DNA from: Symbiodinium sp. CCMP2592 | Lineage: Eukaryota > Sar > Dinophyceae > Suessiales > Symbiodiniaceae | Assembly: GCA_905221615.1 (NCBI GenBank) | Contig: CAJNDT010005323.1 | Coordinates: 507,183 to 571,182, forward strand | Direction of reading: 5' to 3' | DNA: 64,000 bases | In this document: piece by piece, positions 8,740 to 42,985 of the stretch | How the letters are laid out: each line of letters begins with the position of its first letter | Position numbering within the stretch: position 1 is the stretch's first letter | Position numbers and translations under genes: made by a program | The notes under the pieces: generated by a model | Database searches by the model: none | What the model was told of the DNA's origin: nothing | What the model saw: the letters and a program-made list of their open reading frames with translations, nothing else

Positions 8740-9036
8740 GCAGCGTTGTGCGGGAGCTGGTGACTAATCATTGGCAATATGCCGATGGCTCGAAGTCAAA
8801 GACAGGCCGCACTGCCCTCTTGCCGTTCGGGCCATTAGGATCTCGACTAGCTGTTGCTTGTGTCGATGCTGGCGGTAAGCTTGCCGTTGGAAGACTGTTG
8901 TGTCACTTGCGCACCGTGCTTACGAAGACGCGAGCATGGGGAACTGTTGCTTACCCGATGTGAGCCCCTACAGTCCGACTGTTGCATTGCCACGGGTGCT
9001 TTCTACGATTTAGTGTGCTCCGGATGTGGTACGGAG

Positions 9037-9091
9037 TGTGCGAGAGTTACGCGCTCACGGCTCGAAGTCGTGAGCGCATAACTCTCGCACA
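9037..9091. repeat. 23-bp inverted repeat (hairpin)
   Basis: Arms 9037-9059 and 9069-9091 (TGTGCGAGAGTTACGCGCTC... and its complement) pair with a single mismatch around a 9-nt loop. It lies in sequence that the intact paralogues lack, so it was inserted or arose after the duplication. Confidence 0.85.
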
Positions 9092-9678
9092 CTGCACCGA
9101 CGGCCTCTGACAGCTGAACCCGTGCTGCCGGACCGGCTGGAGCGTCTGAGGCACCCGAGACTCGTGCGACAGCGTACCGGCTGGGCAGGCCCGACGTGCT
9201 GCGACTTCGGCTTCAGCAGTTCCCAGATGAACTCCGGGTACTCACAGTGCGTGACCAAGGGGTCCATTCCAGGTCCCACGCAGATAAGCATATCAGCATA
9301 TCCTTGCATTCTGTCGTAGCAGAGTGTTTTGAACAGTGTCTGCGCATGCAGACGTGAGCCAAGTCGAGTCCGACGTGAGGAGCAGGATTCGCTTCCGACT
9401 CCGCCGGAGTTCTGCTTTCACAGGGCCTTCTGAGTCTGAGGCGGAGGCCCAGCGGAGGAACGTTGACCCAAAAGGGGAAGCAAGCCGAGCGAACGGCAGA
9501 GGGCCAGAGATACTATGACTTGGCCCCGAGTGCTAGCATAGGCACTTTGCACTCGAGGCCAGGCGGTGGTGGAGAAGACGAAGGCGCGAGTGCCGTCGCG
9601 AGCTACCTGAGATTACACGAGTTGCCCGCCTCGGCCACAAGGTTTGGTCATGCGGATGCACGGCGCTGAATGTGATTA

Positions 9679-10548
9679 GTGACTAGTGCTGGTAGCACGA
9701 AGGCAGCAAACGAACGGAGAGAATCAGTGTCGCAGCTACTGTTGCTCCGACGAGAATTCTCTCCATGCACCGCTTGCTGCCTTCATTCCCATATTCCCCG
9801 CACGCACAGTGCATTCAACAAGGCCAAACCGTTTACAAGTGACTCGTGCGCTTTGGAAGCTGTGGCCGAGCTGGGCCCTTCGTGTAGGAGCTTCCTGCAA
9901 CTTCTCTGCTCGGACAGGCGCGCACCTCGAGCACGTCCCACCGCGGGAGGATTCCCGTGGCCGGACGTGATGGAGGCGCGCGCCTGCCCGAGCGGACAAG
10001 TTGCAAGCTCCCCAGCTAAACCCGGGCAGTCGGATTGCCGTGCCATGGACCTCCAGGATACGGATGTTCAGCTAAACGGCTGCAGATTTGGCAGCCGCCG
10101 ACTTCACTGTCAGGACTGCGGTGGAAAGGCTGGACCAGGGGATGGTAAGAATGGTGCAGGCCCTTTGGGGATCAATTTCTGCAGGGACAATGATTCTGGC
10201 AGCTTGTACAAGACGCGGTGTCTCCCAGTCGTACCCTTTTGCCCTTGTCGTGATTCTGGGTCTCCGTACCAAAGCCGAATAGAGGTACAAAGCACACTTT
10301 TCAGGGGGTTCGGCTTGGCCTTGCACACTACAAGAACCGTGTTGCCAATGACGGGCAACTTCGTTCATGGCGCGCAGAAGGCTGTTTTCACGTTGGGCTC
10401 CCGGCTGAAAGTCATTGCATCCAGTCCTTCAAGGTATCACCTCAACTTCCATTCCATTGCCAGCTGGACACACTGGCAGATCGAGGGCAAGGATCCCGGC
10501 CTCGCATTCTTCGTGCAGGTGCTGGAGCAGATGGAATGTCGTGAATAG
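9679..10548 (+). CDS. 289-codon open frame running through the copy 0 remnant
   Basis: This frame runs through the replaced middle, the remnant of CHRD exon 1, the former intron and exon 2 ([20 protein letters not shown]), and ends in a TAG at 10546-10548. In the intact copies the same intron carries stops in this frame. It is either a chance frame in a pseudogene or a new coding sequence that absorbed the intron. There is no signal peptide or CBM. I favour a relict. Confidence 0.3.
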   Translation: MTSAGSTKAANERRESVSQLLLLRREFSPCTACCLHSHIPRTHSAFNKAKPFTSDSCALEAVAELGPSCRSFLQLLCSDRRAPRARPTAGGFPWPDVMEARACPSGQVASSPAKPGQSDCRAMDLQDTDVQLNGCRFGSRRLHCQDCGGKAGPGDGKNGAGPLGINFCRDNDSGSLYKTRCLPVVPFCPCRDSGSPYQSRIEVQSTLFRGFGLALHTTRTVLPMTGNFVHGAQKAVFTLGSRLKVIASSPSRYHLNFHSIASWTHWQIEGKDPGLAFFVQVLEQMECRE

Positions 10549-11450
10549 TGGGCGTTCTGCGCATTGGCCCCCCGACGTGACCCCGCGAAGACGGGGCATG
10601 TTTGTACGTACAGTCGACTTCCTCGTTCGATGTGATGGTAAAGATCCACTCGACGCAAAAGATCGGAGCGCGGTAATTGAGGAATATCGAGCGTCATTCA
10701 TGGATCGGCTATGGCAAGTCCTGACATTCTAAACCAAACACCCGACAACCCGAAGCCAGGCTGGCAAATGGCTGGTGAGCACGTGGCGAGACGTTTTCGA
10801 GTCTTGGTTGTTGTTCTGAGTATTCTGGGTGTCGAGCTCATTCATATGTTCAGCCCAAACCCTGCGTAGAACCAAGCATCCGTGGCGAAAGAAGAAGGGG
10901 GGCGATCCCAACAGCGAGTATCTTCGACCTTGAAGACTCTGAAGTCCGAGATTGACGGGCGTTTGAACTGTGGCTTCGATGCGGTGTATAGCCCTAAATC
11001 CCTAAGCCGTAAACACCGAAATTCCCAGCATCTCTAGAATCCCCCAAAACTGTCGAGAAATTCAAGCCCGACACCCCAACCTAAAAGACCTCGAAGGAGA
11101 TCCGAAGTGCAACTTAGGAGATGGCTGTGGCTACGGCAGATGGCTATTCTGTCTGGCACTGGATGGAGGCCGGGCTCTCGTTGAAACGGTGTAGAGACTT
11201 AGGGTTTATCCAGGGTTGGGGTTGGAGTTTAGGGTTTGGGGTATCATAATGCATCACTTCCTCATTGTGACTCGAATCGAGTTCCGTAGCAACAGAACTA
11301 CGAGCAAAGGACGTGCACCCTTGGCCAGAGCGTTCGAGCCTTAGGCCGCATAAACCTACCCCTGCCGTACACCACTTTAACCCTGAACCCCCTGACATAA
11401 CCCTCTGAGCTCCGATTCAACCTGTAGCCTTGGACAAGTTAAACCTTCAG
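10549..11450. other. Former 3' flank of copy 0
   Basis: It aligns loosely with the 3' flanks of copies 1 and 2 (GTGAATAGTGGGCGTTCTG..., then CCGGCAGGC-like and GACGGCTGTGGCTACGGCAG blocks). It has no open exon of its own. Confidence 0.5.
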
Positions 11451-11750
11451 GTGAGCTCCTTCCGGCCTTCCACCCTTCAGCCGGACGAGCCGGCAACGCT
11501 GTCCATCGAGTGGTGGATGCTGTCTCCTTTGCAGGCATTGGACTTTCGAGTCTACTGTGGAGTTTTGGAGATGTTAATCGAGAGGTCGAGTCCCTCTTGG
11601 CAGGTGGGGAAAGGAGGTTTGCTTAACTGTAGCGCCATGCCTTTGGGAAACGCCTGGCACACCGTGCGGATGCTCAAGTACATCAATTCCTTGCGCATGG
11701 CTCTTCTGCAGTTTGATGAAGACGATGAGGATGGGTTGCTACGATGGTGA
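11451..11750 (+). CDS. Open 3' exon in copy 0, acidic C terminus
   Basis: After CCTTCAG a 99-codon frame opens with VSSFRPSTLQPDEPATLSIE and closes with ALLQFDEDDEDGLLRW and a stop. The start resembles the extracellular-type repeats (F-x-P-S...P-x-x-P-x-T-x-S-I-E). The same DNA exists in copies 1 (about 32000-32330) and 2 (about 34225-34560), but there an 8-nt loss near the start and a 2-nt loss before the acidic tail break the frame. So this piece is intact only in copy 0. Whether it belongs to the CBM gene or to the surrounding extracellular gene is unknown. Confidence 0.45.
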   Translation: MSSFRPSTLQPDEPATLSIEWWMLSPLQALDFRVYCGVLEMLIERSSPSWQVGKGGLLNCSAMPLGNAWHTVRMLKYINSLRMALLQFDEDDEDGLLRW

Positions 11751-11960
11751 TGTTCATTGGGAGGATGACCTCACGGTGATGATCATTGTCGCCCTCAGAG
11801 TAGCCGAGAATACGGTTGCGTCATCCTCGTCGTGATTTAGAATCAAAGCACTTCGGGTTTCGGCTTCACGGTTTCGTGTTCGAAATCCTCAGCCGAAGCC
11901 CTAACTCCGACACCCTTTAGACGCCAAGCCCCAAGCCCCAAGCCCCATCACTGGTCCCAG

Positions 11961-17570: not shown

Positions 17571-20500
17571 CCCTAGCTGATGCTCATGATGCCGATCTTG
17601 CGGTGACAAATGCTCTGGATGCCGGTCCTGCGGTGGCATTCAATGGCTGCCTTGGTGGAGCCGACCTCAGCTGATGCTCATGATGCCGGTCTTGCGGTGG
17701 CATTCAATGGCTGCCTTGGTGGAGCCGACCTCAGCTGATGCTCATGATGCCGGTCTTGCGGTGGCATTCAATGGCTGCCACGGTGGAGCCTTCCCCAGCT
17801 GATGCTCATGATGCGGGTCTTGCCGTGGCATTCAATGGCTGCCTTGGTGGAGCTTACCCCAGCTGATGCTCATGATGCCGGTCTTGCGGTAGCCTTCAAT
17901 GGCCGCCTGCCATGGTGGAGCCTACCCCAGCTGATGCTCATGATGCGGGACTTGCGGTGGCATTCAATGGCTGCCTTGGTGGAGCCTGCCCCAGCTGATG
18001 CTCATGATGCCGGTCTTGCGGTAGCCTTCAATGGCTGCTTTGGTGGAGCCTACCCCAGCTGATGCTCATGATGCGGGTCTTGGCGTGGCATTCAACGGCT
18101 GTCTAGGTGGAGCCTACCCCAGCTGATGCTCATGATGCAGGTCTTGCGGTGGCATTCAAAGGCTGGCTGCCTTGGTGGAGCTTACCCCAGCTGATGCTCA
18201 TGATGCCGGTCTTGCGGGTCTTGCGGTGGCATTCAAAGGCTGGCTGCCTTGGTGGAGCTGACCCCAGCTGATGCTCATGATGCCGGTCTTGCGGTGGCAT
18301 TCAATGGCTGCCATGGTGGAGCCTACCGCAGCTGATGCTCATGATGCCGGTCTTGCGGGTCTTGCGGGGGCATTCAAAGGCTGGCTGCCTTTGGTGGAGC
18401 TTACCCCAGCTGATGCTCGTGATGCCGGTCTTGCGGTAGCCTTCAATGGCCGCCTGCCATGGTGGAGCCTACCCCAGCTGATGCTCATGATGCCGGTCTT
18501 GCGGTGGCATTCAATGGCTGCCTTGGTGGAGCCTACCTCAGCTGATGCTCGTGATGCTGGTCTTGCGGCAGCCTTCAATGGCCGCCTGCCTGGGTGGGGC
18601 CAACCCCAGCTGATGCTCATGATGCCGGTCTTGCGGTAGCCTTCAATGGCCGCCTGCCATGGTGGAGCCTACCCCAGCTGATGCTCATGATGCGGGACTT
18701 GCGGTGGCATTCAATGGCTGCCTTGGTGGAGCCTACCCCAGCTGATGCTCATGATGCCGGTCTTGCGGTAGCCTTCAATGGCTGCCTTCGTGGAGCCTAC
18801 CCCAGCTGATGCTCATGATGCGGTCTTGCGGTGGCATTCAACGGCTGTCTAGGTGGAGCCTACCCCAGCTGATGCTCATGATGCAGGTCTTGCGGTGGCA
18901 TTCAATGGCTGCCACGGTGGAGCCTTCCCCAGCTGATGCTCATGATGCGGGTCTTGCCGTGGCATTCAATGGCTGCCTTGGTGGAGCCTACCCCAGCTGA
19001 TGCTCATGATGCCGATCTTGCGGTAGCCTTCAATGGCTGCCTTGGTGGAGCCTACCCCTGCTGATGCGTGGCATTCAATGGCTGTCTAGGTGGAGCCTAC
19101 CCCAGCTGATGCTCATGATGCCGGTCTTGCGGTAGCCTTCAATGGCTGCCTTGGTGTAGCCTACCCAAGCTGATGCTCATGATGGCATTCAATGGCTAGG
19201 TGGAGCCTACCCCAGCTGATGCTCATGATGCCGGTCTTGCGGTGGCATTCAATGGCTGCCATGGTGGAGCCTACCCCAGCTGATGCTCATGATGCAGGTC
19301 TTGCGGTGGCATTCAATGGCTGCCATGGTGGAGCCTACCCCAGCTGATGCTCATGATGCAGGTCTTGCGGTGGCATTCAATGGCTGCCTTGGTGGAGCCT
19401 ACCCCAGCTGATGCTCATGATGCCGGTCTTGCGGTAGCCTTCAATGGCTGCCTTGGTGGAGCCTTCCCCAGCTGATGCTCATGATGCGGTCTTGCGGTGG
19501 CATTCAACGGCTGTCTAGGTGGAGCCTACTCCTGCTGATGCTCATGATGCAGGTCTTGCGGTGGCATTCAATGGCTGCCTTGGTGGAGCCTACCCCAGCT
19601 GATGCTCATGATGCCGGTCTTGCGGTAGCCTTCAATGGCCGCCTGCCATGGTGCAGCGTACCCCAGCTGATGCTCATGATGCGGGTCTTGCGGTGGCATT
19701 CAATGGCTTGCTTGGTGGAGCCTACACCAGCTGATGCTCATGATGCGGGACTTGCGTTGGCATTCAATGGCTGCCTTGGTGGAGCCTACCCCAGCTGGTG
19801 CTCATGATGCGGTCTTGCGGTGGCATTCAACGGCTGTCTAGGTGGAGCCTACCTCAGCTGATGCTCATGATGCCGGTCTTGCGGTAGCCTTCAATGGCTG
19901 CCTTGGTGTAGCCTACCCCAGCTGATGCTCATGATGCGGGACTTGCGGTGGCATTCAATGGCTGCCTTCGTGGAGCCTACCCCAGCTGATGCTCATGATG
20001 CGGGACTTGCGGTGGCATTCAATGGCTGCCTTCGTGGAGCCTACCCCAGCTGATGCTCATGATGCGCTTGCGGTGGCATTCAATGGCTGTCTAGGTGGAG
20101 CCTACCCCAGCTGATGCTCGTGATGCCGGTCTTGTGGTGGCATTCAATGGCTGCCATGGTGGAGCCTACCCCAGCTGATGCTCATGATGCGGGTCTTGCG
20201 GTGCCATTCAATGGCTGTCTAGGTGGAGCCTACCCCAGCTGATGCTCATGATGCGGGTCTTGCGGTGGCATTCAATGGCTGCCTTGGTGGAGCCTACCCC
20301 AGCTGATGCTCATGATGCGGGTCTTGCGGTGGCATTCAATGGCTGCCTTGGTGGAGCCTACCCCAGCTGATGCTCATGATGCGGGTCTTGCGGTGGCATT
20401 CAATGGATGCCTTGGTGGAGCCTACCCCAGCTGATGCTCATGATGCCGGTCTTGCGGTAGCCTTCAATGGCTGCCTTGGTGGAGCCTACCCAAGCTGATG

Positions 20501-23500
20501 CTCATGATGCGGTCTTGCGGTGGCATTCAATGGCTGTCTAGGTGGAGCCTACCCCAGCTGATGCTCATGATGCCGCTCTTGCGGTGGCATTCAATGGCTG
20601 CCTTGGTGGAGTCTACCTCAGCTGATGCTCGTGATGCTGGTCTTGCGGCAGCCTTCAATGGCCGCCTGCCTGGGTGGGGCCAACCCCAGCTGATGCTCAT
20701 GATGCCGGTCTTGCGGTAGCCTTCAATGGCCGCCTGCCATGGTGGAGCCTACCCCAGCTGATGCTCATGATGCGGGACTTGCGGTGGCATTCAATGGCTG
20801 CCTTGGTGGAGCCTACCCCAGCTGATGCTCATGATGCCGGTCTTGCGGTAGCCTTCAATGGCTGCCTTCGTGGAGCCTACCCCAGCTGATGCTCATGATG
20901 CGGTCTTGCGGTGGCATTCAACGGCTGTCTAGGTGGAGCCTACCCCAGCTGATGCTCATGATGCAGGTCTTGCGGTGGCATTCAATGGCTGCCACGGTGG
21001 AGCCTTCCCCAGCTGATGCTCATGATGCGGATCTTGCCGTGGCATTCAATGGCTGCCTTGGTGGAGCCTACCCCAGCTGATGCTCATGATGCCGATCTTG
21101 CGGTAGCCTTCAATGGCTGCCTTGGTGGAGCCTACCCCTGCTGATGCGTGGCATTCAATGGCTGTCTAGGTGGAGCCTGCCCCAGCTGATGCTCATACTG
21201 CCGGTCTTGCGGTAGCCTTCAATGGCTGCCTTGGTGTAGCCTACACAAGCTGATGCTCATGATGGCATTCAATGGCTAGGTGGAGCCTACCCCAGCTGAT
21301 GCCGGTCTTGCGGTGGCATTCAATGGCTGCCATGGTGGAGCCTTCAATGGCTGCCTTGGTGGAGCCTACCCCAGCTGATGCTCATGATGCCGGTCTTGCG
21401 GTAGCCTTCAATGGCTGCCTTGGTGGAGCCTACCCCAGCTGATGCTCATGATGCGGTCTTGCGGTGGCATTCAACGGCTGTCTAGGTGGAGCCTACCCCT
21501 GCTGATGCTCATGATGCAGGTCTTGCGGTGGCATTCAATGGCTACCCCAGCTGATGCTCATGATGCCGGTCTTGCGGTAGCCTTCAATGGCCGCCTGCCA
21601 TGGTGCAGCCTACACCAGCTGATGCTCATGATGCGGGACTTGCGGTGGGATTCCATGGCTGCCTTGGTGGAGCCTACCCCAGCTGGTGCTCATGATGCGG
21701 TCTTGCGGTGGCATTCAATGGCTGTCTAGGTGGAGCCTACCCCAGCTGATGCTCATGATGCCGGTCTTGCGGTGGGATTCAACGGCTGTCTAGGTGGAGC
21801 CTACCCCAGCTGATGCTCATGATGCCGGTCTTGCGGTAGCCTTCAATGGCTGCCTTGGTGTAGCCTACCCCAGCTGATGCTCATGATGCGGGACTTGCGG
21901 TGGCATTCAATGGCTGCCTTGGTGGAGCCTACCCCAGCTGATGCTCATGATGCCGATCTTGCGGTAGCCTTCAATGGCTGCCACGGTGGAGCCTACCCCA
22001 GCTGATGCTCATGATGCGGGTCTTGCCGTGGCATTCAATGGCTGCCTTCGTGGAGCCTACCCCAGCTGATGCTCATGATGCCGGTCTTGCGGTAGCCTTC
22101 AATGGCTGTCTTGGTGGAGCCTACCCAAGCTGATGCTCATGATGCGGTCTTGCGGTGCCATTCAATGGCTGTCTAGGTGGAGCCTACCCCAGCTGATGCT
22201 CATGATGCCGCTCTTGCGGTGGCATTCAATGGCTGCCTTGGTGGAGTCTACCTCAGCTGATGCTCGTGATGGTGGTCTTGCGGCAGCCTTCAATGGCCGC
22301 CTGCCTGGGTGGGGCCAACCCCAGCTGATGCTCATGATGCCGGTCTTGCGGTAGCCTTCAATGGCCGCCTGCCATGGTGGAGCCTACCCCAGCTGATGCT
22401 CATGATGCGGGACTTGCGGTGGCATTCAATGGCTGCCTTGGTGGAGCCTACCCCAGCTGATGCTCATGATGCCGGTCTTGCGGTAGCCTTCAATGGCTGC
22501 CTTCGTGGAGCCTACCCCAGCTGATGCTCATGATGCGGTCTTGCGGTGGCATTCAACGGCTGTCTAGGTGGAGCCTACCCCAGCTGATGCTCATGATGCA
22601 GGTCTTGCGGTGGCATTCAATGGCTGCCACGGTGGAGCCTTCCCCAGCTGATGCTCATGATGCGGATCTTGCCGTGGCATTCAATGGCTGCCTTGGTGGA
22701 GCCTACCCCAGCTGATGCTCATGATGCCGATCTTGCGGTAGCCTTCAATGGCTGCCTTGGTGGAGCCTACCCCTGCTGATGCGTGGCATTCAATGGCTGT
22801 CTAGGTGGAGCCTGCCCCAGCTGATGCTCATACTGCCGTCTTGCGGTAGCCTTCAATGGCTGCCTTGGTGTAGCCTACACAAGCTGATGCTCATGATGGC
22901 ATTCAATGGCTAGGTGGAGCCTACCCCAGCTGATGCCGGTCTTGCGGTGGCATTCAATGGCTGCCATGGTGGAGCCTTCAATGGCTGCCTTGGTGGAGCC
23001 TACCCCAGCTGATGCTCATGATGCCGGTCTTGCGGTAGCCTTCAATGGCTGCCTTGGTGGAGCCTACCCCAGCTGATGCTCATGATGCGGTCTTGCGGTG
23101 GCATTCAACGGCTGTCTAGGTGGAGCCTACCCCTGCTGATGCTCATGATGCAGGTCTTGCGGTGGCATTCAATGGCTGCCTTGGTGGAGCCTACCCCAGC
23201 TGATGCTCATGATGCCGGTCTTGCGGTAGCCTTCAATGGCCGCCTGCCATGGTGCAGCCTACCCCAGCTGATGCTCATGATGCGGGTCTTGCGGTGGCAT
23301 TCAATGGCTTGTTTGGTGCAGCCTACACCAGCTGATGCTCATGATGCGGGACTTGCGGTGGGATTCCATGGCTGCCTTGGTGGAGCCTACCCCAGCTGGT
23401 GCTCATGATGCGGTCTTGCGGTGGCATTCAATGGCTGTCTAGGTGGAGCCTACCCCAGCTGATGCTCATGATGCCGGTCTTGCGGTGGGATTCAACGGCT

Positions 23501-26500
23501 GTCTAGGTGGAGCCTACCCCAGCTGATGCTCATGATGCCGGTCTTGCGGTAGCCTTCAATGGCTGCCTTGGTGTAGCCTACCCCTGCTGATGCTCATGAT
23601 GCGGGACTTGCGGTGGCATTCAATGGCTGCCTTGGTGGAGCCTACCCCAGCTGATGCTCATGATGCCGATCTTGCGGTAGCCTTCAATGGCTGCCACGGT
23701 GGAGCCTTCCCCAGCTGATGCTCATGATGCGGGTCTTGCCGTGGCATTCAATGGCTGCCTTCGTGGAGCCTACCCCAGCTGATGCTTGTGATGCCGGTCT
23801 TGTGCATTCAATGGCTGCCATGGTGGAGCCTACCCCAGCTGATGCTCATGATGCGGGTCTTGCGGTGGCATTCAATGGCTGTCTAGGTGGAGCCTACCCC
23901 AGCTGATGCTCATGATGCGGGTCTTGCGGTGGCATTCAATGGCTGCCTTGGTGGAGCCTACCCCAGCTGATGCGGTGGCATTCAATGGCTGCCTTGGTGG
24001 AGCCTACCCCAGCTGATGCTCATGATGCAGGTCTTGCGGTGGCATTCAATGGATGCCTTGGTGGAGCCTACCCCAGCTGATGCTCATGATGCCGATCTTG
24101 CGGTGGCCTTCAATGGCTGCCTTGGTGGAGCCTGCCCCAGCTGATGCTCATGATGCGGGTCTTGCGGTGCCATTCAATGGCTGTCTAGGAGCCTACCCCA
24201 GCTGATGCTCATGATGCGGGTCTTGCGGTGGCATTCAATGGCTGTCTAGGTGGAGCCTACCCCAGCTGATGCTCATGATGCCGATCTTGCGGTGGCATTC
24301 AGGTGGCATTCAATGGATGCCTTGGTGGAGCCTACCCCAGCTGATGCTCATGATGCCGGTCTTGCGGTGGCATTCAATGGCTGCCTTGGTGGAGCCTACC
24401 CAAGCTGATGCTCATGATGCGGTCTTGCGGTGGCATTCAATGGCTGCAATGGTGGAGCCTACCCCAGCTGATGCTCATGATGCCGCTCTTGCGGTGGCAT
24501 TCAATGGCTGCAATGGTGGAGCCTACCCCAGCTGATGCTCATGATGCGGGTCTTGCAGCCTACCCCAGCTGATGCTCATGATGCGGTCTTGCGGTGGCAT
24601 TCAATGGCTGTCTAGGTGGAGCCTACCCCAGCTGATGCTCATGATGCCGGTCTTGCGGTGGGATTCAATGGCTGCCATGGTGGAGCCTACCCCAGCTGAT
24701 GCTCATGATGCCGGTCTTGCGGTAGCCTTCAATGGCTGCCTTGGTGTAGCCTACCCCAGCTGATGCTCATGATGCGGGACTTGCGGTGGCATTCAATGGC
24801 TGCCTTGGTGGAGCCTACCCCAGCTGATGCTCATGATGCCGATCTTGCGGTAGCCTTCAATGGCTGCCTTCGTGGAGCCTACCCCAGCTGATGCTCATGA
24901 TGCGGTCTTGCGGTGGCATTCAATGGCTGTCTAGGTGGAGCCTACCCCAGCTGATGCTCATGATGCAGGTCTTGCGGTGGCATTCAATGGCTGCCATGGT
25001 GGAGCCTACCCCAGCTGATGCTCATGATGCCGGTCTTGCGGTGGCATTCAAAGGCTGGCTGCCTTGGTGCAGCTTACCCCAGCGGATGCTCATGATGCCG
25101 GTCTTGCGGTGGCATTCAATGGCTGCCATGGTGGAGCCTACCGCAGCTGATGCCTGTCTTGCGGGGGCATTCAAAGGCTGGCTGCCTTGGTGGAGCTTAC
25201 CCCAGCTGATGCTCATGATGCCGGTCTTGCGGTAGCCTTCAATGGCCGCCTGCCATGGTGGAGCCTACCCCAGCTGATGCTCATGATGCGGGTCTTGCGG
25301 TGCCATTCAATGGCTGTCTAGGTGGAGCCTACCCCAGCTGATGCTCATGATGCGGGACTTGCGGTGGGATTCCATGGCTGCCTTGGTGGAGCCTACCCCA
25401 GCTGATGCTCATGATGCTGGTCTTGCGGTGGCAAATGCTCATGATGCCGGTCCTGCAGTGGCATTCAATTGCTGCGCTGATGCTCATGATGCCCGTCTGG
25501 CGGTGGCATTAAATGGCTGCCATGGTGGAGCCTACCCCAGCTGATGCTCATGATGCGGGTCTTGCGGTGGTATTCAATGGCTGCCTTGGTGGAGCCTACC
25601 CCAGCCATGATGCGGGTCTTGCGGTGGCCTTCAATGGCTGCCTTGGTGGAGCCTACCCCAGCTGATGCTCATGATGCGGTCTTGCGGTGGCATTCAATGG
25701 CTGTCTAGGTGGAGCCTACCCCAGCTGATGCTCGTGATGCCGGTCTTGTGGTGGCATTCAATGGCTGCCATGGTGGAGCCTACCCCAGCTGATGCTCATG
25801 ATGCGGGTCTTGCGGTGGCATTCAATGGCTGTCTAGGTGGAGCCTACCCCAGCTGATGCTCATGATGCGGGTCTTGCGGTGGCATTCAATGGCTGCCTTG
25901 GTGGAGCCTACCCCAGCTGATGCTCATGATGCGGGTCTTGCGGTGGCATTCAATGGCTGCCTTGGTGGAGCCTACCCCAGCTGATGCTCATGATGCGGGT
26001 CTTGCGGTGGCATTCAATGGATGCCTTGGTGGAGCCTACCCCAGCTGATGCTCATGATGCCGATATTGCGGTGGCCTTCAATGGCTGCCTTGGTGGAGCC
26101 TGCTGATGCTCATGATGCGGGTCTTGCGGTGCCATTCAATGGCTGTCTAGGTGGAGCCTACCCCAGCTGATGCTCATGATGCCGATCTTGCGGTGGCATT
26201 CAATGGCTGTCTAGGTGGTGGAGCCTACCCCAGCTGATGCTCATGATGCGGGTCTTGCGGTGGCATTCAATGGCTGTCTAGGTGGAGCCTACCCCAGCTG
26301 ATGCTCATGATGCCGGTCTTGCGGTAGCCTTCAATGGCTGTCTTGGTGGAGCCTACCCAAGCTGATGCTCATGATGCGGTCTTGCGGTGGCATTCAATGG
26401 CTGTCTAGGTGGAGCCTACCCCAGCTGATGCTCATGATGCCGCTCTTGCGGTGGCATTCAATGGCTGCAATGGTGGAGCCTACCCCAGCTGATGCTCATG

Positions 26501-26925
26501 ATGCGGGTCTTGCAGCCTACCCCAGCTGATGCTCATGATGCGGTCTTGCGGTGGCATTCAATGGCTGTCTAGGTGATCCTACCCCAGCTGATGCTCATGA
26601 TGCGGGTCTTGCGGTGGCATTCAATGGCTGCCATGGTGGAGCCTACCCCAGCTGATGCTCATGATGCCGGTCTTGCGGTGGCATTCAATGGCTAGCTGCC
26701 TTGGTGGAGCCTACCCCAGCTGGTGCTCATGTTGCCGGCTCTGCAGTGGCTGCCTTGGTGGAGCCTACCCCCATCTGATGCTCAGGAATCCGGCCCTGGG
26801 CTGGCATTTGGCGGTTGCCTTGGTGGATGATTCCGGTGTCTTGTTTGATTGATTTGCGGTATTTGTGGAGCTGCTCCAGCTGACGCTCATGATGCAGGCC
26901 CTGCGGCCTCTTACGGTTGTTGCCT
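17571..26925 (+). repeat. 9.3-kb satellite of a ~64-bp unit
   Basis: About 140 direct copies of a unit around AGCTGATGCTCATGATGC, GGTCTTGCGGTGGCATTCAA and TGGCTGCCTTGGTGGAGCC. Common variants are GGTAGCCTTCAATGGC, GGCCGCCTGCCATGG, TGTCTAGGTGG and a one-base shorter form. Each unit has a CAGCTG (PvuII) site. Because 64 is not a multiple of 3, successive units read in different frames: LMLMMPVLRWHSMA, then ADAHDAGLAVAFNG, then a frame with stops. The many 60-120-codon frames are therefore artefacts. Units at both edges (17571-17650, 26700-26925) are the most diverged. The satellite lies between extracellular-type exons at 17.3 and 27.4 kb and may sit in an intron. Confidence 0.95.
20460..23730 (+). 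repeat. Higher-order repeat inside the satellite (period ~1635 bp)
   Basis: A marker string of variants (a GGTGGGGCC unit at about 20670, a short CTGCTGATGCGTGGC unit at about 21140, a GCTCATACTGCC unit at about 21190) recurs in the same order 1635 bp later, at about 22305, 22770 and 22825. A third, earlier partial copy lies about 2080 bp upstream of the first (GGTGGGGCC unit at about 18590). Multi-unit blocks have therefore been duplicated as wholes. Confidence 0.8.
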
Positions 26926-30003: not shown

Positions 30004-30305
30004 GGCGGGCACCGTTGCAAATAAGGCTTGACCTCAAGGCATTTTTTGTTTGCAATAGATGCTTGCTACAATCAGGCATACCTTGAAGGAATATGGGTTG
30101 AGAATCCCCCCTGCGCCAGGTGATCCCTGGATGGTGAGAAGTTCTCGGCCTCATCTTCGAAGTGATGGAGGCTGTTTCTTTGCAGTGGGCGAGGTAGTGA
30201 CAAATCATCTTGGCAGGATGTTGGTGTTCGCATGTTGCATGGCTCCAAGTCAAAGGCCGCACTGCCGTCTTGTATTTAGGATCTCGGTTCTCAGACGCTC
30301 AGAAC

Positions 30306-31166
30306 ATGGCCCGGCTGTTGCTTCTGTCGATGCTGGCGGTCGCCTTGCCGGCTGAAGCGTCTGAGGCACCCGAGACTTGCGCGACAGCGTGGGTCCAATG
30401 CGGCGGCACCGGCTGGTCCGGCCCGACGTGCTGCGACTCCGGCTTCAGCTGTTCTCAGATGAACTCCTGGTACTCGCAGTGCGTGCCGAAGGGGTCCATG
30501 CCAGAGAAGCCCGAACCTGTAGATATGGCCTCGGCCGACGACGAGTGCTATCACATGTTCAGCGAGCTCAGCTTCAACACCCTGGTCCAGTCTTTCCCCA
30601 GCAATCCCGATAGTGAAGCTACGGCCTACGTGGATTGCAAGCTCTGCAGTCGTAGTGGCATGCAGTGTACGGCCAATGTCCTCGGTGGTCGCACTCAGCT
30701 CGTTGCATCACACATTCACCTGGCCTCCGACGGAGATGGTGAGAATGGTGCAGGCCCTCCAGTGATCAACTTCTGCGGGGACAACGGTCCTGGAATGATT
30801 GCTGATGGCAGCCCATACAAGACGCTAGGGTCTCCCAGTAGTACCCTTTTGTCATTTTGATTTTTGGGGTTTGCGAATTAGAATCTGCGTAGTAGGAGCC
30901 ATGGTACCAGGTCTCCTTGCGCGCACTACCAGAACCGTGCTGCTTTGATGTCCATGACGGGCAACTTCGTTGACGGCGCGCAGAATGCTGGTTTCACGTT
31001 GGGCTCCCGGCTGAAAGACATTGCATCCAATCCTTCGAAGTACTACTTCAACTTCCATTCCATCGCCAGCTGGACACACTGGCAGATCGAGGGCAAGGGT
31101 CCAGTGGGAATGTGCCGTGGCGTTATGCAGATGAGTCAGAGGAGGTTGGGCTCCGTGCTGGTGTAG
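30306..31166 (+). CDS. Secreted CBM1 + CHRD-like protein, copy 1 (two exons)
   Basis: Exon 1 is 30306-30829, exon 2 is 30911-31166 (259 codons plus stop), with a GT-AG intron between. The start [19 protein letters not shown] is a signal peptide. Residues about 22-60 form a fungal-type cellulose-binding module: [23 protein letters not shown] and N-S-W-Y-S-Q-C, with the aromatic W/W/Y positions that bind cellulose. A Pro/Glu linker follows. Then comes a domain with [24 protein letters not shown] and, in exon 2, [20 protein letters not shown]. This resembles the CHRD layout (A-H-I-H-x-G...G-P-V; Y-x-N-x-H-T...G-E-I-R-G), though the match is by eye. The protein is likely secreted to the cellulosic covering. 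No catalytic residues are visible. The intron ends are direct repeats (GTCTCC at the donor and again after the acceptor). Confidence 0.8.
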
Positions 31167-32424
31167 TTCGGGCAGTTGCTGGCAGCCGTTTGAATTTCGT
31201 GAATAGTGGGGCGTTCTGTACAGCGAGCCCAGACCCCCTGCGAAGACAGGGCATTCTTGTACAGTCGACTCCCTCGTTCGATGTGATGGTAAAGGTTCAC
31301 TCGACGAGAGGGATCGGAGCACAGTGGTCGAAGAACATGGAGTATCATTTATGGCCGGCCGATGCCAAATCCTGACGTTCCAAACCCTTACACCTTACAC
31401 CCGAGAACCTGAAGCCACTCCTTACTCAGGCCGGCGATTGGCTGGCGAGCACGCGGCGAGACATTTTCGAGTCTTGGTTGTTGATCCGGGTATTTTGGGT
31501 GTTAGGCTCATAGTTACACAGTGGACCCTCAAAACCTACGAAGGGAGGCGAACGAACCCGAGCAGAGCGACTATCTTCGAACCTAAAGGGCCCCACAGCT
31601 CTGAAGTTTTTCAACTTGAGATGATCTGGACCCTTGCCCTCAGCTGTATGTAACCCCGTAAACTTGCGGCTGGAAAGACCATGAAAGACCTCGACAAAAA
31701 ACCCGAAGTGCAACTCAGGAGACGGCTGTGGCTACGGCAGATGGCTACTCTGTCCGGCACTTCATGGAGGCCTGGCTCAAGTTGAAGCGCTGTAGGGGCG
31801 AAGGCTTTATCAAGGGGTTGAAGTTAGGGGGTCAAGGGTTTGGGGTAATGACATGTATACATCCTGTTCTGATTGTGATCACTTCGATCAAGTTTCGTGA
31901 CAACCTTGGCCAGCTCCTTCGAAAGCCAAGCGCCCGAAACCCACTAAACCCTAGTTCAATGCTGAAGACGGACATCACCCTTAAAGCCCTGATCTGCAGG
32001 TGTGCTCCTTCCACCCTTCAGCCAGACGAGCCGGCCACGCTGTCCATGGAGCGACGGATGCTGTCGCCTTTGCAGGCATGGCGGCGTCGAGTTTACGGTT
32101 GTGGTGGAGTTGTGGGATTAGGGTCTGGGGCCTAAACATGTAGGGTTTTGGGCATTCTGTTTGACCATGAGGGTCGTCTTGTTTGAAGATGGGGGAAGGT
32201 CCTGTACTTGCCTAGCGTCATGGATGCCATTATGTGGGAAATGCCTGAAGCACCGTGCACATGCTTACGGCAATTCCTTGTACGACTCTTCTGCATTTTG
32301 AAGAAGACGATGAGGATGAGTTGCTCCGATCGTCATGCTCATTGGGAGGATTCTAATTCTAATGGTCATGAGCAAGGTCGTCCGGTGGTGGCCGCGAAGC
32401 CATCCGGACAAAAATCAAAGCACG
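31167..32424 (+). pseudogene. 3' flank of copy 1 with broken downstream exon
   Basis: At about 32000-32330 lies the counterpart of the 11451-11750 exon of copy 0. It has lost 8 nt near its start and 2 nt before the acidic tail, so CAPSTLQPDEPATLSMERRM and FDEDDED no longer share a frame. A further + frame at 31112-31375 overlaps the end of exon 2 and is probably 3' UTR. Confidence 0.45.
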
Positions 32425-32559
32425 GCTGTTTCTCTACGGTGGGCGAGGTAGTGACTAATCATCTTGGCAGGATGTTGGTGTTCGCATGTTGCATGGCTCC
32501 AAGTCAAAGGCCGCACTGCCGTCTTGCATTTAGGATCTCGGTTCTCAGACACTCAGAAC

Positions 32560-33405
32560 ATGGCCCGGCTGTTGCTTCTGTCGATGCTGGCGGTCGCCTT
32601 GCCGGCTGAAGCGTCTGAGGCACCCGAGACTTGCGCGACAGCGTGGGTCCAATGCGGCGGCACCCGACGTGCTGCGACTCCGGCTTCAGCTGTTCTCAGA
32701 TGAACTCCTGGTACTCGCAGTGCGTGCCGAAGGGGTCCATGCCAGAGAAGCCCGAACCTGTAGATATGGCCTCGGCCGACGACGAGTGCTATCACATGTT
32801 CAGCGAGCTCAGCTTCAACACCCTGGTCCAGTCTTTCCCCAGCAATCCCGATAGTGAAGCTACGGCCTACGTGGATTGCAAGCTCTGCAGTCGTAGTGGC
32901 ATGCAGTGTACAGCCAATGTCCTCGGCGGTCGCACTCAGCTCGTTGCATCACACATTCACCTGGCCTCCGACGGAGATGGTGAGAATGGTGCGGGCCCTC
33001 CAGTGGTCAACTTCTGCGGAGACAACGGCCCTGGAATGATTGCTGATGGCAGCCCATACAAGACGCTAGGTCTCCCAGTAGTACCCTTTTGTCATTTTGA
33101 TTTTTGGTGTTTGCGAATTAGAATCTGCTAGTAGGAGCCATGATACCAGGTCTCCTTGCGCGCACTACCAGAACCGTGCTGCTTTGATGTCCATGACGGG
33201 CAACTTCGTCGACGGCGCGCAGAATGCTGGTTTCACGTTGGGCTCACGGCTGAAAGACATTGCTTCCAATCCTTCGAAGTACTACTTCAACTTCCATTCC
33301 ATCGCCAGCTGGACACACTGGCAGATCGAGGGCAAGGGTCCAGTGGGAATGTGCCGTGGCGTTATGCAGATGAGTCAGAGGAGGTTGGGCTCCGTGCTGG
33401 TGTAG
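32560..33405 (+). pseudogene. CBM1 + CHRD-like gene, copy 2 (frameshifted)
   Basis: Same layout as copy 1, but 13 nt are missing inside the CBM1 (CGGCACC joins directly to CGACGTGC, removing G-W-S-G). One G is also missing at the exon 1 end (GCTAG|GTCTCC instead of GCTAGG|GTCTCC). The total loss is 14 nt, so the CBM and the rest fall in different frames and exon 2 is again out of phase. Exon 2 (33150-33405) is otherwise intact. It is probably not functional unless recoded. Confidence 0.8.
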
Positions 33406-34652
33406 TTCGGGCAGTTGCTGGCAGCCGGTTGAATTTCGTGAATAGTGGGGCGTTCTGTACAGCGAGCCCAGACCCCCTGCGAAGACAGGGCATTCTTGTA
33501 CAGTCGACTCCCTCGTTCGATGTGATGGTAAAGGTTCACTCGACGAGAGGGATCGGAGCACAGTGGTCGAAGAACATGGAGTATCATTTATGGGCCGGCC
33601 GATGCCAAATTCTGACGTTCCAAACCCTTACACCCGAGAACCTGAAGCCACTCCTTACTCAGGCCGGCGAGTGGCTGGTGAGCACGCGGCGAGACATTTT
33701 CGAGTCTTGGTTGTTGATCCGGGTATTTTGGGTGTTAGGCTCATAGTTACACAGCGGACCCTCAAAACCTACGTAGAGCAGCCCAGATACAGCGACAGAG
33801 GAAGGGAGGCGAACCCCGGCAGCGATTATCTTCGACCCTAAAGCACCCCTGCCCTCAGCTGTATGCCAGAAACCGTAACCCCGTAAACTTGCGGCTGGAA
33901 AGACCATGAAAGACCTCGACAAAAAACCCGAAGTGCAACTCAGGAGACGGCTGTGGCTACGGCAGATGGCTACTCTGTCCGGCACTTCATGGAGGCCTGG
34001 CTCAAGTTGAAGCGCTGTAGGGGCGAAGGCTTTATCAAGGGGTTGAAGTTAGGGGGTCAAGGGTTTGGGGTAATGACATGTATACATCCTGTTCTGATTG
34101 TGATCACTTCGATCAAGTTTCGTGACAACCTTGGCCAGCTCCTTGGAAAGCCAAGCGCCCGAAACCCACTAAACCCTAGTTTAATGCTGAAGACGGACAT
34201 CACCCTTAAAGCCCTGATCTGCAGGTGTGCTCCTTCCACCCTTCAGCCAGACGAGCCGGCCACGCTGTCCATGGAGCGACGGATGCTGTCGCCTTTGCAG
34301 GCATGGCGGCGTCGAGTTTACGGTTGCAGTAGAGTCGTGGGCTTAGGGTCTGGGGCCTATACATGAAAGGTTCAAGGCATTCGGTTTGAACATGAGGGTC
34401 GTCTTGTTTGAAGATGGGGGAAGGTCCTGTTCTTGCTTAGCGTCATGGATGCCATTATGTGGGAAATGCCTGAAGCACCGTGCACATGCTTACGGCAATT
34501 CCTTGTCCGACTCTTCTGCATTTTGATGAAGACGATGAGGATGAGTTGCTCCGATCGTCATGCTCATCGGGAGGGTTGTCTGCTGGTCATGATCATGGTC
34601 GTCTCTCATACTAGCGGTAAAGCCATCCGGACAAAAATGAAAGCATGGCCTG
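33406..34652 (+). pseudogene. 3' flank of copy 2 with broken downstream exon
   Basis: It parallels 31167-32424 and has the same 8-nt loss at the downstream exon (about 34225), so copies 1 and 2 inherited that lesion from a shared parent. Near 34530 the acidic tail can be read HFDEDDEDELLR, but out of phase with the preceding part. Confidence 0.45.
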
Positions 34653-34787
34653 GCTGTTTCTCTACGGTGGGTGAGGTAGTGACTAATCATCTTGGCAGGA
34701 TGTTGGTGTTCGCATGTTGCATGGCTCCAAGTCAAAGGCCGCACTGCCGTCTTGCATTTAGGATCTCGGTTCTCAGACACTCAGAAC

Positions 34788-35648
34788 ATGGCCCGGCTGT
34801 TGCTTCTGTCGATGCTGGCGGTCGCCTTGCCGGCTGAAGCTTCTGAGGCACCCGAGACTTGCGCGACAGCGTGGGTCCAATGCGGCGGCACCGGCTGGTC
34901 CGGCCCGACGTGCTGCGACTCCGGCTTCAGCTGTTCTCAGATGAACTCCTGGTACTCGCAGTGCGTGCCGAAGGGGTCCATGCCAGAGAAGCCCGAACCT
35001 GTAGATATGGCCTCGGCCGACGACGAGTGCTATCACATGTTCAGCGAGCTCAGCTTCAACACCCTGGTCCAGTCTTTCCCCAGCAATCCCGATAGTGAAG
35101 CTACGGCCTACGTGGATTGCAAGCTCTGCAGTCGTAGTGGCATGCAGTGTACAGCCAATGTCCTCGGCGGTCGCACTCAGCTCGTTGCATCACACATTCA
35201 CCTGGCCTCCGACGGAGATGGTGAGAATGGTGCGGGCCCTCCAGTGATCAACTTCTGCGGGGACAACGGTCCTGGAATGATTGCTGATGGCAGCCCGTAC
35301 AAGACGCTAGGGTCTCCCAGTAGTACCCTTTTGTCATTTTGATTTTTGGGGTTTGCGAATTAGAATCTGCGTAGTAGGAGCCATGGTACCAGGTCTCCTT
35401 GCGCGCACTACCAGAACCGTGCTGCTTTGATGTCCATGACGGGCAACTTCGTTGACGGCGCGCAGAATGCTGGTTTCACGTTGGGCTCCCGGCTGAAAGA
35501 CATTGCTTCCAATCCTTCGAAGTACTACTTCAACTTCCATTCCATCGCCAGCTGGACGCACTGGCAGATCGAGGGCAAGGGTCCAGTGGGAATGTGCCGT
35601 GGCGTTATGCAGATGAGTCAGAGGAGGTTGGGCTCCGTGCTGGTGTAG
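34788..35648 (+). CDS. Secreted CBM1 + CHRD-like protein, copy 3 (two exons)
   Basis: Exon 1 is 34788-35311 and exon 2 is 35393-35648: the same lengths (524 and 256 nt) and phases as copy 1, giving 259 codons plus stop. The signal peptide, all Cys of the CBM1, the W-S-G-P and N-S-W-Y-S-Q-C motifs and the CHRD-like strands are conserved. Differences from copy 1 are few and scattered. It is the last unit of the array; its 3' flank is cut off about 380 bp after the stop, next to the microsatellite block. It is likely secreted to the cell wall or theca. Confidence 0.8.
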
Positions 35649-36101
35649 TTCGGGCAGTTGCTGGCAGCCGTTTGAATTTCGTGAATAGTCGGGCCTTCTG
35701 TACAGCGAGCCCAGACCCCCTGCGAAGACAGGGCATTCTTGTACAGTCGACTCCCTCGTTCGATGTGATGGTAAAGGTTCACTCGACGAGAGGGATCGGA
35801 GCACAGTGGTCGAAGAATATGGAGAGTATCATTTATAGACCGGCCGATGCCAAATCCTGACGTTCCAAACCCTTACACCCGAGAACCGGAAGCCACTCCT
35901 TACTCAGGCCGGCGAGTGGCTGGTGAGCACGTGGCGAGACGTTTTCGAGTCTTGGTTGTTGATCCGGGCATTTTGGGTGTTAGGCCAATAGTTACATAGT
36001 GGACCCCAAAACCTACGTAGAGCAAGGTGCCGTTTGTACCACTATTCTAGTGTCTGCTTTGTTCAGTATAGAGACGGTACACACTGATACTACAAGCTGC
36101 A

Positions 36102-36268
36102 ATGACGACGACTACTGCTGCTGCTCCTCCTCCTCCTCCTACTACTTCTGCTACTGCTGGTACTACTAGTACTAGTACTAGTACTATAGTACAAATACGA
36201 GTACTAGTAGTAGTACTAGTACTAGTACTAGTACTAGTACTAGTACTAGTACTAGTACTACTACTACA

Positions 36269-36306
<38 letters not shown>

Positions 36307-36341
36307 GACGACTACCACTACTACTACTACTACTACTACTC

Positions 36342-36385
<44 letters not shown>

Positions 36386-36466
36386 GCTACTATTGCTACT
36401 ATTGCTACTACTGCTACTGCTACTGCTACTGCTACTGCTACTGCTACTGCTACTGCTACTGCTACT

Positions 36467-36517
<51 letters not shown>

Positions 36518-36658
36518 GCTGCTACTGCTACTGCTACTGCTACTACTACTACTACTACTACTACTACGACTAGTTCCACCACCACCACCACCACCACCAC
36601 CACCACCACCACCACCACCACCACGACTACTACTTCCCACGACGACGACGACGACGGC
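36102..36658 (+). repeat. Compound short-tandem-repeat block
   Basis: The motifs change in sequence: CTC/ACT, (TACTAG)n, (ACT)n, (TACTGC)n, (CTGCCTA)n, (ACT)n, (CCA)n, (CGA)n. It gives a 354-codon frame of Leu and Pro runs on the + strand and poly-Val on the - strand; I treat neither as real. Confidence 0.9.
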
Positions 36659-41558: not shown

Positions 41559-42985
41559 GTTCTCCTGATCGGAAGCAGCGGCTTTGTCGGGGTCCGCATT
41601 CAGGAGCTCCTCGTTGAGGCAGCAGCAACTCACAAGGCGGCGGGCAGCTCAATCCCTACAACCCCAAAATCCTAAACCAAACCCAAAATCAAAACCCTAA
41701 ACCCCTCAGCCTCATCCCGAACCCCCCGAACAATGTGCACCCCCCCGACGAGGCAGCCTTGAATCTCGTCTGCGTGGACATCAACGCCCCGAAGCACTTG
41801 CGACACTTGGATCGGCATGGGGAGGCTTTGGGGTTTCGGGGTTTCGAATTTAGAGTTGGAGCTTATGGCCTTTTAGGGTTTGGTGCTGTGAACTTCGGAT
41901 TTGGGCCTAGGGCCCGGGTTTTTAGGGGATGTGGATGGATGTGGTCTCGGGTTTAGTTTAGGGAAGTGGGCTTGAGGGCGTTTGGGTTTAGGGTCTAAGC
42001 CTTGGACTTCAAGTGCCTCAGGGTATTGAGCTCATCCAGGACTCAGTTCAAAGTGTGCATACTCTGTTGTTTGAGGGCCCTTACTTCTTAGTGGGCTGCA
42101 GGTCTTCAGGATCGCAGGCTTTAGATTCAGGGCGTGGCATCCTGTGCCGGGCCTTGGCCCAAAATGGGGACTTCGAGCCCAAGGGGACCCGGACACGAGC
42201 CCCTAAAAGCCCGAAGCTTGCACGGCAGCCCCAGGAGAGGACATGGTGTACTTCACCGGTGACCTGCGTGAGCCGAAGCATATGGAAAGCATCTACGAGG
42301 CCAGGCCTTGGAAGCCCTTTAACAGCCTCATAGTAGCAACGATATAGCCATTATTACGGCCAAAGTAAACAGCCTCATAGTAACAACAACAACCATTATT
42401 ACGGCCAAAATAAACAGCCACAGATGTTTTGGACAATCCGCCCTCGTGCTCGACTGAAGTCCTCACGGCCTGACATGCTACCCTCGAAGTCGCAATCCAA
42501 GAGCCGAATGGCGTGCTCGCAGCCTTGCCTTAGAAAACGAGCATCGTGAGAGTTCTCAGTGGCTGTAGATTCTGCAGATATGGTCATAGATCTGAATCAT
42601 GTTACATGGTGACAATCAAGGCCATGTGCTGTTACCCGAAGGCCCAGCTCTCAGGGGCCTTTCCACCCCCATGTCTGCACTCAGAGCCCCGGAACCTTTC
42701 TTCCGAGCTTGCCGCCCCCTCTGCGTGCCTGTGGCCAACGGAAGGCCATGAAGAGCTGCGGCTATCCCATCAAGGGCACGATCCACCTGGCATCGATCAT
42801 TCCCTTCTTGGGCATCCCAGAGAGCTTCATCACCCGCGTAAACGTGGCCGGGAGATGAACAGGGAGTAGAGGGCCTGGGAGGTTCAGCCAAGGGCGGCTC
42901 GGGGTCCCTGCTGGGCTTTTTTGGTTTCCGGACCCTGAATCTTGACCCAGGTCCACGCATTCATCCAAGAGCACGCATGCGTTTG

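Follow-up and report, generated by a model that had tools for sequence, protein, structure and literature searches.

A 64,000-nucleotide stretch of contig CAJNDT010005323.1 of Symbiodinium sp. CCMP2592 (the window) carries a tandem array of a short gene whose predicted protein joins a cellulose-binding module (CBM1) to a divergent domain resembling CHRD. The array occupies 30170..36020 on the plus strand and consists of three units beginning at about 30170, 32424 and 34652, a spacing of about 2.24 kb, with the third ending at about 36020, before a CTA-type microsatellite. By blastn, unit 1 was 93.3% identical to unit 2 over 2290 positions and 97.2% identical to unit 3 over 1377 positions; MAFFT alignment under other limits gave 94.6% and 95.1%, respectively. 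A preliminary description made from the DNA letters (the sequence-only reading) had proposed a three-copy array in which copies 1 and 3 encode full proteins of equal length, and both points were borne out: copy 1 (start 30306, stop end 31166) and copy 3 (start 34788, stop end 35648) encode the same 256-residue protein, and their seven coding nucleotide differences all fall at synonymous third positions. Copy 2 (32560..33405, plus strand) is a broken gene that carries a 13-nt deletion in the CBM1 at about 32663, and its reading frame stops after 47 residues.

In copy 1, exon 1 (30306..30820, plus strand) encodes a signal-peptide-like N-terminus, the CBM1, a linker and the first part of the CHRD-like domain, and exon 2 (30911..31166) encodes the remainder of that domain, with Y-Y-F-N-F-H221-S and C-R241-G, and the stop. 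The two are separated by a 90-nt GA-AG intron (30821..30910). Copy 3 is also on the plus strand, with exon 1 at 34788..35302 and exon 2 plus stop at 35393..35648, and its 90-nt GA-AG intron (35303..35392) has the same sequence as that of copy 1. These boundaries replace the GT-donor junctions read earlier (30829/30911 and 35311/35393), which give 259 residues with an extra Thr-Leu-Gly before Ser-Pro-Cys. The 256-residue product instead has the length of P0001, a relative encoded by an uninterrupted frame in a JGI contig of 1163 bases, which differs from copies 1 and 3 at three residues and reads Tyr-Lys-Ser-Pro-Cys at the junction, without Thr-Leu-Gly. As the genome copies that we read carry the intron, a spliced transcript is the probable source of the P0001 frame. 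At the same point, P0002 and P0004-P0010 have Tyr-Lys-Ser/Thr-Pro-Cys.

A GT-AG intron was rejected when the other copies in the genome were compared. Copy 2 of the window, the copies of a second array on C5229 and a paralogue on C5324 have one G fewer before the GT. GT-AG splicing therefore keeps the frame in copies 1 and 3 alone, and would put exon 2 out of frame in copy 2, in C5324 and in all four intact copies on C5229. With GA-AG, the four intact C5229 copies yield full proteins around a 125-nt intron in the same place, the C5324 intron is 137 nt long, and both single-base deletions that distinguish copy 2 from copy 1 fall within the intron (33062-33149). GA-AG splicing also fits P0001 in length and junction, and P0002, which is identical to the C5324 product. 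The GA donor was fixed beforehand by the search pattern; the test is the full-length protein in every intact copy and the fit to P0001 and P0002. Speaking against GA-AG, P0011 and P0012 continue from Tyr-Lys into Thr-Leu-Gly before entering the intron; because both run into the intron and end there, we take them as unspliced readings. GA and GC splice donors are in use in dinoflagellates, and this family is a clear GA-AG case overlooked by some automatic models (P0011, P0012) and by reading by eye. The heptamer GGTCTCC occurs near the donor (30829-30835) and across the acceptor (30910-30916) of the copy 1 intron, a pair that could be a trace of intron insertion or movement.

The N-terminus and the CBM1 stand as first described. 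Because the N-terminus resembles a signal peptide, the protein should enter the secretory route. The CBM1 spans residues 28-60 (30387..30485, plus strand, in copy 1), and residues 28-56 match Pfam CBM_1 (PF00734) with 43.4 bits against a cut-off of 20.6 (E 3.2e-11); Foldseek matched CBM1 structures in PDB with a probability of 1.00. Cysteines C32, C43, C49 and C59 are present together with W29, W55, Y56, Q31 and N53, at the conserved cysteine and flat aromatic face positions of the T. reesei CBM1. The module would be expected to bind crystalline cellulose. An overlapping Toxin_7 match (E 0.0055, below cut-off) was discarded.

The second domain, which contains S-H-I-H and Y-F-N-F-H-S, had been called CHRD-like, and here the evidence comes from the family and the fold. 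Our set of relatives (48 proteins, alignment A1) was drawn from 62 matches of a first protein search, leaving out six CBM1-only matches (two named fungal cellulases and four unnamed CBM1 plus PF03443 proteins) and eight shortened, unspliced or odd models (P0003, P0007, P0011, P0012, P0015, P0017, P0019, P0054); a further search, made with the domain in trimmed form (A2), brought 82 matches. At E up to 1, the Pfam CHRD model found 35 of the 48 relatives, the best with 5.3e-9; at E up to 0.1, it found 12 of the 16 domains that were tried in trimmed form; and precomputed PF07452 labels are attached to P0013, P0014, P0018, P0025, P0063 and P0064. According to the available text of PMC13382577, the CHRD domains of human chordin have a superoxide dismutase (SOD)-like fold by crystal structure. 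The predicted model of our domain is an eight-strand SOD-like beta-barrel. The sequence-only reading had named two observations that would speak jointly against CHRD, the lack of a CHRD match and the lack of a beta-sandwich; only the first was made, for the protein itself, and most of the relatives do match.

On this model, H136-x-H138 (30711..30719, plus strand, in copy 1) lies on strand 4 (residues 132-139) and is kept in 48 of 48 relatives in A1. With H221 on strand 7 it makes up a three-histidine set, and an invariant arginine, R241, lies on strand 8. Kept across the span from bacteria to dinoflagellates, the order H-x-H ... H ... R falls on those strands that hold copper in SOD. A further histidine, H228, is His in only 27 of the 48.

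Members of the family were present in Symbiodinium, in other dinoflagellates (labels Gonyaul- and Scripp-) and in diatoms (Skeletonema marinoi and the label Detonu-). By Pfam, 35 of the 48 relatives carry CHRD, 10 carry CBM_1 and 6 carry PAN, and among the 98 family proteins of both searches the CBM1 was found in 12 by motif pattern and in 13 by precomputed Pfam labels. Named carriers of the CBM1 form come only from Symbiodinium (P0002, P0004) and from two Skav gene models (P0008, P0009), which we take to be Fugacium kawagutii; two unnamed proteins have the module as well, P0016 with 60% and P0020 with 53% identity. An origin by transfer from prokaryotes or viruses found no backing: genome_contigs and viral_contigs, each scanned with A2 through a single short peptide pattern, yielded no encoded relative, and a plasmid search with P0025 found none. 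The only canonical CHRD match in the assembly (L055, G000:C5051:1957163-1957510) was rejected as a paralogue, as it is a bacterial-looking gene; it has a weak PEP-CTERM match, lies among bacterial-looking open reading frames, and has named relatives that include Phycisphaerales. Its contig is probably a bacterial associate inside the dinoflagellate assembly, and the gene served as our entry point to microbial CHRD proteins.

A search of the 1.098-Gb assembly with P0001, followed by reading of the loci, gave counts that are lower bounds: at least ten copies, seven of them intact. Four lie in the window, one of them a decayed copy; C5229:738237-744245 holds five, of which one is broken, and C5324 holds one, whose protein is identical to P0002, itself from Symbiodinium sp. 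CCMP2592. Between the window copies and the intact C5229 copies, nonsynonymous divergence (dN) was 0.040-0.043 and synonymous divergence (dS) 0.40-0.42, a dN/dS of about 0.1; as judged from these coding comparisons, the protein is under strong purifying selection. The decayed copy extends the array as first described. It lies at approximately 8850..11766 on the plus strand, as found by tblastn and blastn within the window and by the whole-genome search, with coding remnants at 9127-9271 (CBM1 part) and 10129-10497 (CHRD-like part) and blastn fragments that are 67-89% identical spread over the whole span. It is about 20 kb upstream of the array, and between them is a satellite of 9 kb (17610-26827) with a 64-bp unit and about 80% match among its copies. 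Directly 3' of the array is a long CTA/CCA-type microsatellite (36139-36624). The window had no Rfam match, and a window scan with a spliced-leader relic pattern found no relics near the genes, only two 2-mismatch matches, at 42153 and 58742.

Given these domains, we propose with moderate confidence that the gene encodes a secreted protein of the cellulosic wall or thecal plates, in which a CBM1 anchor would hold an SOD-like CHRD barrel, most likely with a bound metal, on wall cellulose. We infer secretion, cellulose binding, wall location and metal binding; a redox function is speculative. The secretory route would deliver the protein, the CBM1 would tie it to the cellulose of the wall or thecal plates, and the short linker would hold the divergent barrel at the surface, where it could offer a metal site. 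The ion on wall cellulose would most plausibly be copper, and the role might be copper or superoxide buffering at the wall, or service to CBM1-bearing oxidative or hydrolytic enzymes of wall remodelling. In the same genome, CBM1 occurs in frame with GH7 (L007, L010), GH6 (L001) and an LPMO_10 domain (L015), which indicates that oxidative and hydrolytic cellulose enzymes share this anchor. Dinoflagellate GH7 with CBM1 has been described, according to the available part of PMC10438907. Among these loci, L015:508-1806 (G000:C5122) has LPMO_10 and CBM1 in one reading frame, CBM1 matches stand in a row in L012 (three) and L013 (two), and near-identical GH7-CBM1 frames form pairs on different contigs (L007/L008 and L010/L011, the Pfam scan covering L007 and L010); in L010 the CBM1 is preceded by a PAN-like stretch that scores below the Pfam cut-off. 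The sequence-only reading had suggested a structural or targeting protein of the theca; its interpretation is supported in part and gains a structural footing from the predicted fold, while the thecal location and the metal stay predictions. It had also seen no catalytic domain. We agree that no glycosidase matches, but the barrel keeps the copper-side histidines of SOD, so this statement needs care.

Several observations weigh against a metal-bearing CHRD barrel. Pfam CHRD (PF07452) matched neither the protein itself nor P0001 at E up to 1. One-to-one comparison with bacterial CHRD by hhalign was weak (E 0.002-0.003, probability 10-15%) and touched two short, distinct stretches, both aligned in the register expected. 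With Foldseek, neither the present model nor that of a bacterial CHRD reached a PDB structure at E up to 0.001; the best match of the latter had E 0.15, and unrelated folds were among its matches. The proposed meeting of the three histidines is read from the strand order of the predicted barrel and not from distances in the model. One relative in A1 has R in place of H221, and P0074 reads H-I-R. No counterpart of the bridging histidine or of the zinc ligands was found, and SOD activity is not predicted; the loop position searched for the missing SOD histidine is P in 75 of 85 matches and His in none. The protein had no match to PF00080 (Cu,Zn SOD) at E up to 1, and hhalign of A2 against six bacterial SodC proteins gave no similarity (E 0.7, 0.23). 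A profile search of PDB sequences likewise returned no SOD, and glycosylasparaginases headed its matches (E 0.057 and worse). With no sequence similarity to SOD found, the link to SOD is structural only. An exon-wise search of the assembly found no PF00080 exon, though a split gene could escape it. Finally, as far as the available text of PMC13382577 goes, the CHRD domains of chordin lack metal histidines and bind glycosaminoglycans, so the fold can serve without a metal, and a fungal CHRD deletion mutant was unchanged under the wall, oxidative and salt stresses reported in the accessible part of PMC12825985.

A purely structural or adhesive wall protein resembling the oomycete protein CBEL is a realistic possibility to which we give considerable weight. 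Here the CBM1 would hold cellulose, the CHRD-like domain would cross-link the theca by binding a second wall component, either a glycan or a glycoprotein, and the histidines would be structural. CBEL itself pairs CBM1 with non-catalytic PAN, and its knock-downs alter wall polysaccharide deposition and adhesion, as stated in the text available from PMC3532174; glycosaminoglycan binding by chordin CHRD domains (PMC13382577, in part) points the same way, as does the pairing of a CHRD-like domain with PAN in 6 of 48 family members (E up to 1, best 1.4e-10). Alone, however, this explanation leaves unaccounted for the invariant H-x-H ... H ... R on the copper strands, from bacteria to dinoflagellates. 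A protein released to act on outside cellulose (shed thecae, prey or host-derived material) rather than on the living wall is improbable, as Pfam finds no glycosidase domain in it. Functionless decay of tandem copies would suit the broken copy 2, the broken C5229 copy and the older decayed copy, but it is very hard to reconcile with the purely synonymous differences between copies 1 and 3, the dN/dS against the second array, and the near-identical uninterrupted frame of P0001. That these are truncated cellulases, as the names cbhC (P0002) and cel6A (P0004) imply, is scarcely credible, since neither GH6 nor GH7 matches and the second domain forms a separate family, whose predicted fold resembles SOD; the names most likely derive from the CBM1 alone.

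A broader extension of the metal-bearing wall protein reading, which we offer tentatively and consider doubtful, is that microbial CHRD as a whole may form a branch of the SOD fold that lacks zinc and holds copper with three histidines. The dinoflagellate version would then be a CBM1-tied, wall-bound copper or redox protein, dealing with copper, superoxide or peroxide on behalf of the CBM1-bearing lytic polysaccharide monooxygenases (LPMOs) and cellulases that open and rebuild the theca. If true, cell walls would have a redox protein of a new kind, and microbial CHRD would have what our searches suggest is its first biochemical function. To our knowledge, few dinoflagellate theca proteins have a known function. 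The literature searched, which mostly excluded subscription journals, held no paper on CHRD in dinoflagellates or Symbiodinium; no listed title in the CHRD literature or in that on dinoflagellate CBMs and carbohydrate-active enzymes pointed to a CBM1-CHRD pairing, which is not proof of absence; none of the papers listed by a wider search for the pairing held CHRD, a poor test, since cellulose terms could by themselves bring a paper in; and among papers on CHRD with SOD and copper only the chordin paper was relevant by title. The role of microbial CHRD is described as little known in the accessible part of PMC12825985, which refers to an algal gene linked to stress and describes a gene for virulence in a fungus. 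Together, these are known domains in a pairing that our searches did not find in print, and the metal-site prediction is testable: the protein is short and strongly conserved, and its cellulose anchor and predicted metal site make it suited to expression and to direct assays of binding to cellulose and copper.

Compared with known CHRD proteins (PF07452; chordin and secreted bacterial and fungal proteins), the Symbiodinium protein is alike in its predicted SOD-like eight-strand barrel and shares with the microbial members three motifs that follow one another in one order, H-x-H, Y-x-N-x-H[ST] and R-G, but it differs in falling below Pfam detection, in its longer domain with seven cysteines and in the CBM1 in front. 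Chordin stands apart from it in the missing metal histidines noted above (PMC13382577, available text). With Cu,Zn SOD (PF00080) the model shares the fold, an H-x-H on strand 4 and a histidine on strand 7, but the protein is without the bridging histidine, the zinc ligands or detected profile similarity. The family includes cbhC and cel6A of Symbiodinium (P0002, P0004), named cellulases without an annotated glycosidase domain, and our findings argue against names that present its members as cellulases. The copper-binding CBM2 of ScLPMO10C provides a precedent for copper sited on a cellulose-binding module that accompanies an oxidative cellulose enzyme; in the text available from PMC12703677, it has a Met-Met-His site within the LPMO itself, and no homology is claimed. 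In CBEL, too, CBM1 is paired with a domain other than a glycosidase, and the oomycete likewise builds a cellulosic wall (PMC3532174, in part). CBEL has a PAN/Apple partner and two CBM1 modules, whereas the Symbiodinium protein, in which Pfam finds no PAN, combines one CBM1 with a CHRD-like partner.

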